In this document: piece by piece, positions 2,752 through 9,076 of the stretch | Layout of the letters: each line of letters starts with the position of its first letter | Position numbering within the stretch: position 1 is the first letter of the stretch | NCBI GenBank assembly: GCA_937974055.1 | Contig: CALJIU010000130.1 | Location: 1 to 49,512 of the forward strand | Length of the DNA: 49,512 nucleotides | From: an uncultured Neomegalonema sp. | GTDB lineage: Bacteria; Pseudomonadota; Alphaproteobacteria; Rhodobacterales; Rhodobacteraceae | Direction of reading: 5' to 3' | Position numbers and translations under genes: made by a program | Notes under the pieces: generated by a model | What the model saw: the letters and a program-made list of their open reading frames with translations, nothing else | The model's database searches: none | Told to the model about the DNA's origin: nothing

Positions 2752-3606
2752 ATGGTCTCTTTCAAGATGAAGCACGGCGCAGCGGTTGCTGTGCTGCTTG
2801 CGACAACGGCGGTGACTGGGGTTGCTGTTGCGCAAACCAATCTCAGCAACACCGTGATCCAGTCAACCGGCACCGGAACCATCGCGACCCCCGGCGCTGT
2901 GGATCGTGCAATCGTGCAGCCCCTGCAAAACGCGACGATCCAGTCGTCGGGTACGGGCGTCATTGCAACACCGGGCGCAATCGAGCGCCGTGTCGTTCGG
3001 GCACCTACTCAGATCGTCACCGGCGGTTATGCCGATGTGACGGAATGTTACATTGAGGGCGAATCGCCCATCGAAGACCGTGATCGTCTTCCCGCCTGCC
3101 CCGCCGAAATCGCGGAACTGGGTGAAATCCAGTATGTGAACGAGCCGATCCAGCAGTCTGTCGTTGAGCAGCCCGTGATTCAGCAGCAAACCGTTCAGGT
3201 TCAAAGCGTCGAGCCGGTTCAGCTCGATTTGGCCAGCGTTACCCGTGGTACGCCCTGTGGTCCGGGCACCGGCACAAGCTGCGCAAGCACCGCTGCCGAC
3301 CTGCAGAACGTGCGCCCGTATTTCAATACGTCTACGCCTACGCCCGCCACTCCGGCTCCGCAGATCGTGGCCGCTTCGCCACCCCCGCCTCCTCCTCCGC
3401 CCCCACCACCCCCACCACCTCCGCCTCCTCCACCACCGCCACCCGTGGCAGTGACGCCCATTCCAGCGGCTGGTTTCGGTGGCATCGGTGTTCCCGGTAT
3501 CGTTGCGGCGGGGATCGGTGCGCTGGCAATCGGCGGTATCATCTACGCGATTTCGGATGAGGACGACGACAACAACGCCTCGAACAACACGCGCAACAAC
3601 AACTAG
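2752..3606 (+). CDS. secreted or membrane-anchored repeat protein with 22-residue polyproline tract and C-terminal Gly-rich TM segment
   Basis: aggag RBS-like sequence upstream; signal peptide (AVAVLLATTAVTGVAVAQ); two 27-aa imperfect repeats; Pro22; GFGGIGVPGIVAAGIGALAIGGIIYAI segment and acidic/Asn tail. Confidence 0.8.
   Translation: MVSFKMKHGAAVAVLLATTAVTGVAVAQTNLSNTVIQSTGTGTIATPGAVDRAIVQPLQNATIQSSGTGVIATPGAIERRVVRAPTQIVTGGYADVTECYIEGESPIEDRDRLPACPAEIAELGEIQYVNEPIQQSVVEQPVIQQQTVQVQSVEPVQLDLASVTRGTPCGPGTGTSCASTAADLQNVRPYFNTSTPTPATPAPQIVAASPPPPPPPPPPPPPPPPPPPPPPVAVTPIPAAGFGGIGVPGIVAAGIGALAIGGIIYAISDEDDDNNASNNTRNNN
2848..3006 (+). repeat. two imperfect coding repeats of about 27 aa
   Basis: NTVIQSTGTGTIATPGAVDRAIVQPLQ followed by NATIQSSGTGVIATPGAIERRVVRAP. 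Confidence 0.8.
3379..3444 (+). repeat. polyproline-coding tract (22 consecutive Pro codons)
   Basis: Direct codon reading; mixed CCA/CCC/CCG/CCT usage. Confidence 0.95.
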
Positions 3607-3635: not shown

Positions 3636-3671
3636 CATGGCCCGGCGATTGATGAAAATCGCCGGGCCATG
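3636..3671. terminator. intrinsic terminator-like hairpin
   Basis: Perfect 15-bp stem catggcccggcgatt / aatcgccgggccatg, 6-nt loop, followed by ctgtttt. Confidence 0.75.
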
Positions 3672-3752: not shown

Positions 3753-3878
3753 ATGAATGCTCGACTGGTTCGTACCCTCGCTTTCGTCGCCCTCATGGGC
3801 ATCGTCTTCGCCGCGTCCTGCGCGACGTTCGTGCGCGCCGATACCGGGGCACCTGTCACGATGGAAACGGCCCCATGA
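3753..3878 (+). CDS. small hydrophobic, possibly exported or lipoprotein peptide (41 aa)
   Basis: MNARLVRTLAFVALMGIVFAASCATFVRADTGAPVTMETAP; ATGA overlap with the next ORF; ggaagg RBS-like sequence upstream. Not listed in the ORF track. Confidence 0.55.
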   Translation: MNARLVRTLAFVALMGIVFAASCATFVRADTGAPVTMETAP

Positions 3879-4813
3879 GCGATTCCGGCGACCCGCAGGA
3901 CTACACGCCCAAATCCGCAACACGTTTCGGTGGTCCCGGTCATCAAACGACGCCACCCGCCATGCTGAACAGCGCGACACGCCTCGATAGCCGGGGGCAG
4001 CGCAGCGCGCGTTTCCGCAAGCGTAGCTGGATGATCCTGATTGCCGCCGCCCCGTTGCTCTTTGCGGCCATTCGCAGCCTGTCGGGCGGCGATGCCATCG
4101 GCATGGGCACCAATATCGGTCTTTTCGCGCTCTACGCCTTCTCGGTCTTCCTGATCCGTCAGGGGGGCGAGGCCGAGGACGCTTACCTCGACCGCACCTA
4201 TGCCTCGCCCCCGGCTTTGCCGCGTAAACTGCTGGGTTCACTTGGTCTTGGTGTCGCCACCGCCCTGACCGGCCTGTTCGGATGGGATATCGGCATCGTC
4301 CAGTCCATCGGCCTTGGCGTGCTTGCCGCCGGAGCCTCCGTCGCGACCTTCGGTTTCGACCCGATGAAGGCCAAAGGCGAGATTTCGCTATCTGGCGTCA
4401 CGCCGCAGATGGTCGAGGATGCGATCGACGAGGCGGAGGAACGGTTGGAGGGTATCGACCGCGCCGCCGCCGATATCGCCGACCGCCCCCTGCGCGACCG
4501 CCTTGGCAAGATTACCGCACGGGGGCGCGATATCCTCCGCCGGATCGAGGAAGACCCCTCAGACTTGCGCCGGGCGCGCAAATTTCTGAAAGTCTATCTC
4601 GACGGGGCATTGGAGGCGACGCGCAAATACGCCCGCAGCCAGCACGACCTCGGCGATAGCGACATGTATCTGAAATTCCGCAGCTTGCTTGATGACATGC
4701 AGCAGACATTCGACCAGCAACACGAAAAGCTGCTGACCAACGACCGCATCGACCTCGATGTGGAAATCGACGTTTTGGCTGAACGGCTGGAACGTGAAAC
4801 CGTGCTGCGCTGA
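3875..4813 (+). CDS. XpaC-like (5-bromo-4-chloroindolyl phosphate hydrolysis family) membrane protein
   Basis: Start MSDSGDPQDY overlaps the upstream sORF stop; two hydrophobic segments then a helical C-terminal domain; typical TelA neighbour. Confidence 0.65.
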   Translation: MSDSGDPQDYTPKSATRFGGPGHQTTPPAMLNSATRLDSRGQRSARFRKRSWMILIAAAPLLFAAIRSLSGGDAIGMGTNIGLFALYAFSVFLIRQGGEAEDAYLDRTYASPPALPRKLLGSLGLGVATALTGLFGWDIGIVQSIGLGVLAAGASVATFGFDPMKAKGEISLSGVTPQMVEDAIDEAEERLEGIDRAAADIADRPLRDRLGKITARGRDILRRIEEDPSDLRRARKFLKVYLDGALEATRKYARSQHDLGDSDMYLKFRSLLDDMQQTFDQQHEKLLTNDRIDLDVEIDVLAERLERETVLR

Positions 4814-4929
4814 TCGTTGCGCTTAACCATGTTTCACGCGATACTTGGCGTGGGATGTGATCCACTTTAAGACAGTAATGCGCCGCGTGCATAGCGTCGG
4901 TCGTACAAAGATTAAGACAGGGAACCATC

Positions 4930-6141
4930 ATGGCCGTTGAACAGACCGAACAACTCCGCCAGAAGACCGCGCTGGCCGTCCGCGAGGCTGACGAGATCAT
5001 TCAGATGACCCCACCCCCGCCCGCGCAGGAGCTTATCACGATCCAAAGCGCCAACCCCGATCAGGTCGCCGCGATCCGCCACCGCATGTCGGAAATCGAC
5101 CTGTCGAACACCCAGACGATCATCAAATTCGGCTCCAAGGCGCAGGAAGACCTGACCGCCATTTCCGACGAAATGCTCGACGGCGTGCGCAACAAGGATG
5201 TGGGACCGGCGGGCAGTTCTCTGCGCAAGATGGTCACCACCATTCGCGGCTTCGACGTCACCGAACTCGCCCCCGGCAAGGAAGCCGGTTTCTTTGCCAA
5301 GATTTGGGCATGGATCATGGGCAAGTCCGCCTCCACCGCCGATTTCGTGGCGCAATACGAGGAAGTGCGCGGGCAGATCGACAGTATCCAAGACGAACTG
5401 CTGACGCATGAGACGAAATTGCTCAAGGATATCAAATTCCTCGACAAACTCTATGACAGCTCCCTCGATTTCTACGATCAACTTGCCCTCTACATCGCGG
5501 CGGGTGAGGCGAAGCTCGACGAACTCGATACGACCGAGATTCCGGCCAAGGAAGCCTATGTACAGGCCGCCTCCGAAAACGAGGGTGTGCTGCGGGCGCA
5601 GGAATTGCGCGACCTGCGCGCGGCCCGCGACGACCTCGAACGCCGGGTCTACGATCTGAAACTGACCCGTCAGGTGACGATGCAATCGCTCCCCTCGATC
5701 CGGTTGGTGCAGGAGAACGACAAATCCCTCGTCAACAAGATCAACTCGACCCTCGTGAACACCATCCCCCTGTGGCAGACGCAGCTCGCGCAGGCCGTCA
5801 CGATCCAGCGGTCGCGTGACGCCGCCGGTACGGTCAAGGATGCGACCGATCTGACGAACGAATTGCTGACCAAGAACGCCGATAACCTCCAAATGGCAAA
5901 CCGCGAAGTGCGCGAGCAGATGGAGCGTGGTGTCTTCGATATCGACGCGGTCAAGCAGGCCAACCAACGCCTGATCGACACCATCAACGAAAGCCTCGCC
6001 ATCGCCGACGAGGGCAAGAAGAAACGCGCCGAAGCCGAATCCGAGCTGATCACGATGGAAGAGGAACTCAAGAAAACCCTTTCCTCCGCCAAAGCCCGTA
6101 AAGACGGCACTGGCGATAATGTCGGGACATCGGCGGGGTGA
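4930..6141 (+). CDS. toxic anion resistance protein, TelA family
   Basis: 403 aa, helical/coiled-coil throughout, with TelA-like segments (SLPSIRLVQENDKSLVNKINSTLVNTIPLWQTQLAQAV). Confidence 0.85.
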   Translation: MAVEQTEQLRQKTALAVREADEIIQMTPPPPAQELITIQSANPDQVAAIRHRMSEIDLSNTQTIIKFGSKAQEDLTAISDEMLDGVRNKDVGPAGSSLRKMVTTIRGFDVTELAPGKEAGFFAKIWAWIMGKSASTADFVAQYEEVRGQIDSIQDELLTHETKLLKDIKFLDKLYDSSLDFYDQLALYIAAGEAKLDELDTTEIPAKEAYVQAASENEGVLRAQELRDLRAARDDLERRVYDLKLTRQVTMQSLPSIRLVQENDKSLVNKINSTLVNTIPLWQTQLAQAVTIQRSRDAAGTVKDATDLTNELLTKNADNLQMANREVREQMERGVFDIDAVKQANQRLIDTINESLAIADEGKKKRAEAESELITMEEELKKTLSSAKARKDGTGDNVGTSAG

Positions 6142-7025
6142 GATACGCGCGCGCAGCAGTAACGGGCGCTCTGGCCCTGTTGACCTTGTCGATCACTGGT
6201 TGCGGCAGGTCCGCGACTGATCTTGGGCCGCAGCAGCCGCGCGCAACCTCGGTCGGTGTCTTGCCGCCGACCGATATCGTGTCCCGCCGGGACAGGGTGC
6301 CGTTGCCGTTCTACGCCGCAAAGCCCCGCCCGGAGACGCCGTATTCCAACGTCGATGTGCTGCGCAACTTCATGTCCATCGCCCTGCGTGCCGAGGCCGC
6401 CGACGATTTTGCCCCCGATGGCAGCATCGCGATTTCCAAATGGCAGGGACCGGTCCGCTATCGCCTCGCCGGGGCGCAACCGCGCGACAAGGTACAGATC
6501 GCCGCGCTGTCGCAACACCTCTCCGACCTCACCGGCCTCGATATCCGCGAGGCTTATGACGTCGAGCGGTACAATATGGATATCCGCTTCGTTCCCCGCG
6601 AATTTCGTGGGGCGGAGATGCGCGAACTGCTTGCGACCAACTGGCTTGGTCCCCGCGTGGCTCGCCTTGCCGAAGGCTGGCGCGATTACGAATCCGACCG
6701 CTGCTTCACCCTCACCACCCGCGATCCGGGGACGGGCGTGACCGGCACGGCGCATATCTTCATCAAGGACGAACTGTCCCCGATCTGGCGGGAAACCTGC
6801 ATCATCGAGGAGATGGCGCAGAGTCTGGGCCTGTTGAACGACGATCCCCGCGCCTCGCCCTCGATTTTCAACGACGATGGCGTGTATCAATCCTTGACCA
6901 GTCAGGACGAGTTGCTGCTGCGCATCCTCTACGACCCCCGCATTGAATCGGGCATGACCAGACGCAATGTCTTGCCGCTGGCGGAACAGGTGATTGCGGA
7001 TCTGCGCCCCGCAGGCAGGCGTTGA
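6138..7025 (+). CDS. DUF2927 domain lipoprotein (paralog 1)
   Basis: GTG start overlapping the telA stop; lipobox SITGC; conserved C-terminal block EEMAQSLGLLNDD...SIFND...LLLRILYDPRIESGM. Confidence 0.8.
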   Translation: MRYARAAVTGALALLTLSITGCGRSATDLGPQQPRATSVGVLPPTDIVSRRDRVPLPFYAAKPRPETPYSNVDVLRNFMSIALRAEAADDFAPDGSIAISKWQGPVRYRLAGAQPRDKVQIAALSQHLSDLTGLDIREAYDVERYNMDIRFVPREFRGAEMRELLATNWLGPRVARLAEGWRDYESDRCFTLTTRDPGTGVTGTAHIFIKDELSPIWRETCIIEEMAQSLGLLNDDPRASPSIFNDDGVYQSLTSQDELLLRILYDPRIESGMTRRNVLPLAEQVIADLRPAGRR

Positions 7026-7882
7026 TGCGGGCCGCTCTGCTCGCCGCTGCCCTTGGCTTGCTGAGTGCCTGCGCCCCCCCGTCGTCCGGGCCTGAACTTG
7101 CCGCTCTCTACGGCGATTTCGAGTATTACTACCGCGCCGATTCCCGCTTTCGCACCGATTACGACCCCCCCGATGCCCCCATCGACCTCGCCAAGCTGGA
7201 GCAAAGTTTCCTGAAACTCGCCTTCAACAGCGAGGCGCAGCAACTGAACGACCGTACCATCGTGCAGGCCGAGGAAGTCCAACTGCTGCGCTGGCCCGGT
7301 CCCGACGTCACCTACGCCCTGATCGGTGGCTCCCCTGCGGATGACGCCCGGATGCTGGCGCTGGGCACCCGCATCGGCGACGTGATCGGGCTGCCGGTGC
7401 AGCCGGTAGACAATGTCCAAGATGCCGATATCCGCGTCTTCGTCCTCGATGGCCCGACCCGGCGGGAGTTTGGCAAGAAATCTGCCGAAGGCTTCGATCT
7501 GTCGATAGCGGCCTTTATCGGCGCATGGGTGCTGCGCCCCGAATTTCCGTGCATCGGCGTCATCAATACCAACCCCGAAGACGACAGCCTCGCGGTCGGT
7601 GCGATCTTCATCAAAGACGAATTGCAGGGCGATTTCCGCCGCGCTTGCTTCACCGAAGAATTCACGCAGGTCTTCGGCCTCATCAACGATGACCCCGATG
7701 TTCGCCCCTCGATCTTCAATGACGATCAGGAGTTCATTGAATTGACCCGCCACGATGAATATCTGCTCAAGATGCTCTACGACCCCCGCCTCTCGCCCGG
7801 CATGACCGAGGCCGAGGCCCGCCCCCTGCTGGGGCAGATCGTGCGGGATGTGGTAGGGCAGAGCGAGACGGCAGTATATTAG
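7025..7882 (+). CDS. DUF2927 domain lipoprotein (paralog 2)
   Basis: TGATG overlap with the upstream stop; lipobox LLSAC; EEFTQVFGLINDD...SIFND...LLKMLYDPRLSPGM. Confidence 0.8.
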   Translation: MRAALLAAALGLLSACAPPSSGPELAALYGDFEYYYRADSRFRTDYDPPDAPIDLAKLEQSFLKLAFNSEAQQLNDRTIVQAEEVQLLRWPGPDVTYALIGGSPADDARMLALGTRIGDVIGLPVQPVDNVQDADIRVFVLDGPTRREFGKKSAEGFDLSIAAFIGAWVLRPEFPCIGVINTNPEDDSLAVGAIFIKDELQGDFRRACFTEEFTQVFGLINDDPDVRPSIFNDDQEFIELTRHDEYLLKMLYDPRLSPGMTEAEARPLLGQIVRDVVGQSETAVY

Positions 7883-7891
7883 GAGAGCCAG

Positions 7892-9019
7892 ATGAGCCTT
7901 TGGGACCGCCTAACCGGCGAATTTATCGACATTATCGACTGGACGACCGATGATGGCGATACAATGGTCTGGCGCTTCGAGCGCTATGGCAACGAAATCA
8001 AGCACGGTGCCAAGCTGACCGTACGCGAGGGGCAGGCCGCCGTTTTCGTCAACGAGGGGCAGGTCGCCGACGTCTTCCCCCCCGGCCTCTACCAGTTGGA
8101 AACGAACAACCTGCCGATCCTGTCGACGTTGCAGAATTGGGATCACGGGTTCCAATCGCCCTTCAAGGCCGAAATCTATTTCGTTAGCCTCAAGCAGTTC
8201 ACCGACCTGAAATGGGGTACCAAGAACCCGGTCATGCTGCGCGACCCGGATTTCGGCCCGACCCGCCTGCGTGCCTTTGGCACCTATGCCATGCGGGTAG
8301 CCGATCCCAAGGTTTTCCTGCGTGAGATCGTCGGCACCGACGGCGAATTCACCACCGGCGAGATTCAGAGCCAATTGCGCAATATCATCGTGTCGCGCTT
8401 CTCGAACGCCATCGCGTCCTCGCATATTCCCGTGCTCGATCTGGCCGCTAATTATGATGACTTAGGCAAATTCGCGGGCGTGAAGATTGGCGAGGAACTG
8501 GCGGAATACGGCCTGATGCTCACCAAGCTGTTGGTCGAAAACGTCTCGCTGCCCCCCGAAGTGGAAAAGGCCATGGACCGCCGCACTCAGATGGGTGTGA
8601 TCGGTGATCTGCACAAATACACGCAGTTTCAGGCCGCTGAATCCATGCGCGCCGCCGCCGAGAATCCGGGCGAGGGGGGCGGCGCTGCCTCCGCTGGTAT
8701 CGGGGCCGGAATCGGCATGGCGATGGGCGGCATGATGGGCAACGCGATGGGCGGCACGGCCTATGCCGATGCGCCGCAGGGTGGCATGGCTCCGCCCCCG
8801 CTGCCGCCGCAGGGCAAGCAATGGCATGTTGCCATCGATGGCGCATCCAGCGGCCCTTATGATCAGGGCGCGCTCGCGGGGTTGGCCCGCGATGGTCGCT
8901 TGACCAAGGACAGCCTCGTCTGGTCTGCCGGTATGGAAGCATGGGAACGCGCGGGCGTCGTCGCCGACCTGTCCAGCGTCTTCGCCGCGACCCCGCCCCC
9001 CCTGCCGCCGCAGGGCTGA
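7892..9019 (+). CDS. SPFH/band-7 domain (YdjI/virion-core-like) protein with C-terminal GYF_2 domain
   Basis: N-terminal SPFH-like fold ([35 protein letters not shown]...), Gly/Met-rich linker, C-terminal [19 protein letters not shown]...[15 protein letters not shown]. Confidence 0.8.
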
Positions 9020-9043: not shown

Positions 9044-9076
9044 CCGTGGCCGTCTTACCCAAAGCGACGGCCACGG
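9044..9076. terminator. hairpin, probable terminator after the SPFH-GYF gene
   Basis: Perfect 11-bp stem ccgtggccgtc / gacggccacgg with 11-nt loop; no strong T-run. Confidence 0.5.

Follow-up and report, generated by a model that had tools for sequence, protein, structure and literature searches.

The DNA analyzed here, 49,512 nucleotides of contig CALJIU010000130.1 from an uncultured Neomegalonema sp. of the Rhodobacteraceae (termed the window), carries at 3753-9019 an operon for a microprotein, XpaC, TelA, two DUF2927 lipoproteins and an SPFH protein. The most informative results are that this operon is part of the core gene complement of the Rhodobacterales and that DUF2927 has a predicted matrixin fold with a conserved, rewritten zinc site. 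The explanation favored, at somewhat better than even confidence, is that the operon encodes a core Rhodobacterales machine for envelope surveillance and membrane repair.

Operon organization

Open reading frame (ORF) calls and a Pfam profile search place six ORFs on one strand with the families first listed in an earlier, sequence-only reading of the same DNA. The features are as follows (profile-search values in brackets; TM, transmembrane; sORF, short ORF).

3636-3671, + strand: 15-bp hairpin, z -6.2, short T-rich tail, terminator-like
3753-3878, + strand: sORF, 41-amino acid one-TM microprotein, ATGA overlap with the XpaC start
3875-4813, + strand: XpaC/Halogen_Hydrol (PF10112), three TM-like stretches (4.5e-29)
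4930-6141, + strand: TelA (PF05816), all-helical, no TM, single copy (2.9e-106)
6138-7025, + strand: DUF2927a lipoprotein (PF11150), lipobox ITGC, EEMAQSLGLLND, GTG start (2.1e-40)
7025-7882, + strand: DUF2927b lipoprotein (PF11150), lipobox LSAC, EEFTQVFGLIND, predicted matrixin fold (2.1e-38)
7892-9019, + strand: SPFH (Band_7_1, PF13421) with GYF_2 (PF14237), PPPLPP motifs on either side of GYF_2 (1.8e-102; 2.1e-14)
9044-9076, + strand: 11-bp hairpin 3' of the last gene, z -4.7, no T run

The start/stop overlaps at three junctions (ATGA, GTGA and TGATG) are exactly those described in the sequence-only reading, and the flanking 15-bp and 11-bp hairpins that it noted are both present. The two junctions without overlap are the 116-bp XpaC-TelA gap and the 9-bp DUF2927b-SPFH gap. 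DUF2927b starts at ATG, with TTG at 7022 also possible, and its closest named relatives are from uncultured Neomegalonema (76% identity). TelA matches its profile with 355.7 bits against a curated cut-off of 30, over positions 3-331 of 332, and XpaC with 102 bits against a cut-off of 29.8. The SPFH protein scores 341.8 bits with PF13421 and has no TM-like stretch, as expected of the YdjI type. The predicted topology is that of a microprotein with one TM segment, XpaC with three, TelA in the cytoplasm, two lipoproteins and an SPFH protein that is soluble.

Conservation and gene order in Rhodobacterales

The order was sampled with 101 Rhodobacteraceae genomes, almost all of them 90% complete or better, from 54-55 genera. 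Profile searches find DUF2927 in 100 of these genomes, TelA in 100 (99 strong full-length matches and one fragmentary), XpaC in 99 and Band_7_1 SPFH above cut-off in 98. The operon genes are almost always single-copy, and the coordinates of TelA, DUF2927 and SPFH adjoin in almost every genome. The neighborhood conservation on which the sequence-only reading had proposed to check the operon is therefore borne out, with the genes co-conserved in one order and each family present in 98-100 of the 101 genomes.

Gene order was surveyed by calling genes in 60 regions that between them represent almost all genera sampled in the family, the window being counted apart. The usual order is a small TM ORF or a TerC-family gene, then XpaC-TelA-DUF2927-SPFH, then inserts in some regions, and a zinc-ribbon protein (ZnR). 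Hidden Markov model matches in the region are found for TelA in 60/60, DUF2927 and SPFH each in 57/60, XpaC in 56/60 and ZnR in 51/60; in about 12 of the 60 a TerC-family gene stands directly upstream of XpaC, and XpaC lies apart from TelA in genus g7. Among 64 named loci with TelA, DUF2927 follows in 63 (a count biased upward by gathering the loci with a DUF2927 query), SPFH in 59 (two of the missing cases reflecting short flanks) and ZnR in 49, while XpaC precedes in 55. Gaps between neighbors within the operon are mostly below 50 bp. The recurrence of this order in nearly all 60 regions and in the named genomes puts the gene set far outside what chance would give.

Variations on this arrangement also occur. 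Secreted proteins of about 210 amino acids (cluster 28) are inserted between DUF2927 and SPFH in L068, L114 and L120, with three in tandem in L120, and a membrane protein of about 210 amino acids (cluster 66) occupies this position instead in L078 and L111. In L078, L087 and L093 the operon copy of XpaC is preceded by a second paralogue that has a small TM ORF of its own (cluster 49).

Outside the order, three other alphaproteobacterial families have the arrangement XpaC-TelA-SPFH-ZnR, with SPFH directly after TelA and no DUF2927 (L262, L263 and L265), and in several more families TelA has a weak XpaC-like neighbor or none. DUF2927 itself is found in 32 of 234 good genomes of the class sample. 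The arrangement in the three families marks a cytoplasmic and inner-membrane core that exists without the lipoprotein, DUF2927 looking like a Rhodobacterales addition.

DUF2927 has a predicted matrixin fold with a rewritten zinc site

The motif EExxQxxGLxND...PSIFNDD...LT..D..LL..LYDPR pointed to a matrixin with replaced ligands ahead of the structure search. The AlphaFold2 model of DUF2927, built with 74 sequences from the window and genome contigs, has a predicted local distance difference test score (pLDDT) of 94.8 and a predicted template modeling score (pTM) of 0.92. Almost all of the top 50 Foldseek matches in the PDB are matrix metalloproteinase (MMP) catalytic domains (best E 1.4e-3, probability 1.00), including MMP1, karilysin, MMP-13, MMP-7 and MMP-9. 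Myroilysin, a bacterial metzincin, is also among the matches, as is an unrelated TIR domain with probability 0.21. A PDB sequence search with the TelA and DUF2927 profiles gave nothing significant.

In the alignment of the 74 sequences (A2 numbering) Glu-196, Glu-197, Gln-200, Gly-203 and Asp-207 are invariant and Asn-206 is nearly so. At the ligand positions EEQ is found in 63 sequences of the aligned set, HEH with a further His in six and neither in four. The six, which keep HExxHxxG[FL]x[GN]H, are distant homologues (L239, L243 twice, L246, L247 and L249). All three zinc-binding His residues are replaced in every operon-linked copy, with EExxQxxGxxxD standing in place of the HExxHxxGxxH zinc site of active matrixins. 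DUF2927 thus shares with the matrixins (MMPs, karilysin) the predicted fold, the active-site helix, the Gly turn and a C-terminal helix ending in an LYDP-like motif, whereas it differs in its zinc ligands, in two conserved Cys residues and in being a lipoprotein. These residues, Cys-161 and Cys-193, may form a disulfide. Both window copies have a lipobox (ITGC, LSAC) and, because there is no Asp at +2, sorting to the outer membrane is likely by the E. coli rule. The rewritten site probably binds an envelope polypeptide or glycan without cutting it. The EEQ and HEH labels cluster in the tree; no ancestral state is claimed from it, because its deep branching is weakly supported and the HEH sequences sit on long branches.

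Genome G246 has about seven DUF2927 matches in about 20 kb (L242, L243), comprising EExxQ and HExxH types and one of neither, a cluster useful for tracing loss or gain of the active site. Elsewhere in the genome, most Rhodobacteraceae carry a second type of DUF2927 (L122-L132, L135-L139), about 450-510 amino acids in length, whose C-terminal extension is helical and TPR-like and whose motif is HEELAQALGPLND.

Most genomes have one DUF2927 copy in the operon and the window has two. Of 13 other genomes of the genus, 11 likewise have two adjacent matches, the tree puts copies a and b into clades of their own that each span the genus, and two or three tandem copies occur in further deep lineages (L156, L157 and L162). 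This pattern indicates that the tandem pair is old and genus-wide, and a recent duplication is ruled out.

A microprotein gene precedes XpaC

The window sORF encodes 41 amino acids with one TM-like stretch, and clear homologues of it occupy the corresponding position in Neomegalonema loci L150-L154. In other genomes a one-TM ORF of 27-40 amino acids with the consensus core LQKLAFFLLLALILYVA lies directly ahead of XpaC. A profile from 18 seeds matches beside XpaC in 104 of 112 loci and elsewhere twice, and a profile from 12 core seeds, searched against 55,574 short ORFs, gives 95 matches beside XpaC and six elsewhere (E<20). Close pairs, which are not independent of one another, show 96/28/202 differences at the three codon positions, as seen for a protein-coding gene under purifying selection.

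SPFH, zinc-ribbon and flanking proteins

A PPxP-type motif is present at the end of all 59 complete SPFH proteins and another lies before GYF_2 in 57. Since GYF domains bind proline-rich peptides, self- or cross-ligation between the GYF domain and the SPFH protein's own proline motifs is a plausible assembly device. Directly upstream of the operon in the window (2752-3606) is a predicted secreted or membrane protein with a run of more than 20 prolines, which could be a GYF ligand. Proline-run frames directly upstream are also seen in L150 and L153 and were not found in L151, L152 and L154.

ZnR matches the TFIIB zinc-binding family, with TFIIB-type zinc ribbons and one C-terminal TM segment. 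Its likeness to YdjG is drawn from published description rather than from sequence, YdjG having a TFIIB-type zinc ribbon (PMC9239133) and being membrane-integral (PMC8581546). ZnR adjoins the operon in most genomes. It still comes after the operon in three congeners (G108, G110 and G111) and is located on another contig in the genome of the window (C176, 68-1258), where a gene for an RTX-like repeat protein lies nearby (L258 2770-3999).

The hairpin at 3636-3671 is terminator-like and closes the gene upstream of the operon. The hairpin at 9044-9076 is not a standard intrinsic terminator, because it has no T run; pyrH comes next, and further on frr, uppS, cdsA, dxr, rseP and bamA are read from ORF translations.

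Discussion

Related systems are known from Firmicutes. In Bacillus subtilis the SPFH protein YdjI acts together with YdjG/H to bring PspA to the membrane (PMC8581546), and the xpaC-yaaN and pspA-ydjGHI operons are both SigW-dependent (PMC3498285). Induction of xpaC/telA1 has been described in a setting that requires the envelope-stress pair CesSR (PMC3139573), and Listeria xpaC-telA is induced by bacteriocin (PMC12791056). As in pspA-ydjGHI, the usual operon would pair an SPFH protein with a zinc-ribbon membrane partner: B. subtilis is also matched by PF13421 in a control search, and ZnR matches the TFIIB zinc-binding family, a domain that YdjG is reported to have (PMC9239133). In contrast to that system the operon has XpaC and TelA and no PspA, and GYF_2, DUF2927 and the microprotein are added. 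Of 100 complete genomes, 38 have PspA, and in no case does it lie within 15 kb of the operon, which thereby lacks the PspA/ESCRT-III subunit of pspA-ydjGHI. As in the xpaC-telA (yaaN) pairs of Bacillus, Listeria and Lactococcus, which are induced by envelope stress in Gram-positive bacteria (PMC3139573, PMC12791056), XpaC directly precedes TelA, whereas here the pair is joined with SPFH, ZnR, lipoproteins and the microprotein. XpaC and TelA may hold the place that PspA has in Bacillus, by analogy of position.

The Firmicutes evidence, together with the patchy occurrence of PspA and its absence from the operon, is the reason for placing the operon as an envelope-stress machine. XpaC and the microprotein would form an inner-membrane platform with TelA, a long helical cytoplasmic protein, as the working subunit. 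The YdjI-type SPFH protein would assemble on the cytoplasmic face and cluster TelA, its subunits perhaps cross-linked by the GYF domain and their own proline motifs, and would be tethered to the membrane by the YdjG-like zinc-ribbon/TM protein. The DUF2927 lipoproteins would reach into the periplasm as sensor or adaptor for damage that is sealed by the machine inside. The operon would in effect add a periplasmic pseudoprotease arm to a machine uniting the two B. subtilis SigW operons (PMC3498285). An envelope function is likely from these analogies, and complex formation and membrane repair are suggested by them. A bolder version, offered tentatively and rather doubtful as it stands, is that DUF2927 pseudo-matrixins sense envelope damage through a dead metalloprotease cleft and with the microprotein control TelA-SPFH repair assembly, as an order-wide system independent of PspA.

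Several results weigh against this explanation. The Foldseek E values of DUF2927 are near 1e-3 with TM-scores of about 0.55-0.65 when normalized by target length, so that matrixin is a call on the modeled fold and not proof of descent. The TelA AlphaFold model is weak (pLDDT 64), its fold search gave only generic coiled-coil or pore-former matches and no link to PspA, and the TelA-PspA profile comparison (hhalign) returned a probability of 2.3%; TelA is not claimed as a PspA/ESCRT-III homologue, and the models do not support a membrane-remodeling mechanism common to the two. The 12-core-seed profile, which includes no Neomegalonema seeds, misses the window sORF, and other deep-lineage sORFs score E 2-15, yet at the right place. 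Position, size and weak similarity are the grounds for relating the window sORF to the order-wide microprotein, and because the core-only profile does not reach it the homology is stated as positional: the gene is clearly conserved within Neomegalonema and has, across the order, a counterpart in position. A literature search found no phenotype or interaction data for the operon, no paper mentioning DUF2927 and none on the TelA, XpaC and SPFH combination.

A dedicated tellurite or oxyanion detoxification system is improbable. The name TelA and the TerC-family genes upstream of XpaC speak for it, as does a review that lists the chromosomal telA of Rhodobacter sphaeroides among tellurite determinants (PMC6955997, citing O'Gara et al. 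1997). Since TelA is single-copy in the order to which that species belongs, the R. sphaeroides gene is probably the same as that of the operon, and a tellurite link is plausible because of this listing. Near-universal presence across the order, however, fits a housekeeping role, and none of the operon genes is recognizable as coding for a reductase, methyltransferase or efflux pump. Nisin tolerance is also lost in Firmicutes telA mutants; the Listeria mutant is reported (PMC12791056, citing Collins 2010) as 4-fold more sensitive to nisin and 2-fold to tellurite. An active DUF2927 enzyme, using an unusual metal or mechanism at a new E/E/Q/D site in a regulated periplasmic protease unit, is about equally unlikely. 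The invariance of E, E, Q, G and D in 74 sequences is stronger than expected of a decayed site and the matrixin motif retains its general-base Glu, but none of the zinc-binding His residues survives in operon-linked copies and no matrixin is known to work with E/Q/D.

Less probable again is that the genes are merely co-transcribed housekeeping functions with no shared machine. The separation of XpaC from TelA in genus g7 and the detachment of ZnR in part of Neomegalonema would agree with this, whereas nearly all sampled genera keep the order, with junctions that are tight or overlap, and the same core recurs in other families. An anti-phage or conflict system is very unlikely. SPFH proteins occur in some defence loci, and the names Ter/TelA and Psp have historic links to phage, but PADLOC gave no match at E<=1 for any operon protein and the genes are single-copy in nearly all genomes, in fixed order and with no sign of mobility; the PADLOC result and the core distribution are the reasons for rejecting a defence island. 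Of the envelope-stress or defence operon put forward in the sequence-only reading, the envelope half is upheld by the predicted topology, the strong co-conservation and the Firmicutes genetics of XpaC/TelA and YdjI/YdjG (PMC8581546, PMC3498285, PMC12791056, PMC3139573), and the defence half is not supported. The conserved microprotein position, the matrixin-fold DUF2927 with its rewritten metal site and the YdjG-like ZnR as usual partner go beyond it.

Nearly all genomes sampled from this major order of marine and soil bacteria carry the operon, which includes a tiny membrane microprotein easily missed by gene finders. The unassigned family DUF2927 gains a predicted fold and a conserved, rewritten active site. 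XpaC, TelA and YdjI/YdjG-like SPFH proteins, separately linked to envelope stress in Firmicutes, are here brought into one transcription unit, and what they do together can now be tested in Rhodobacter or Paracoccus, which are genetically tractable.

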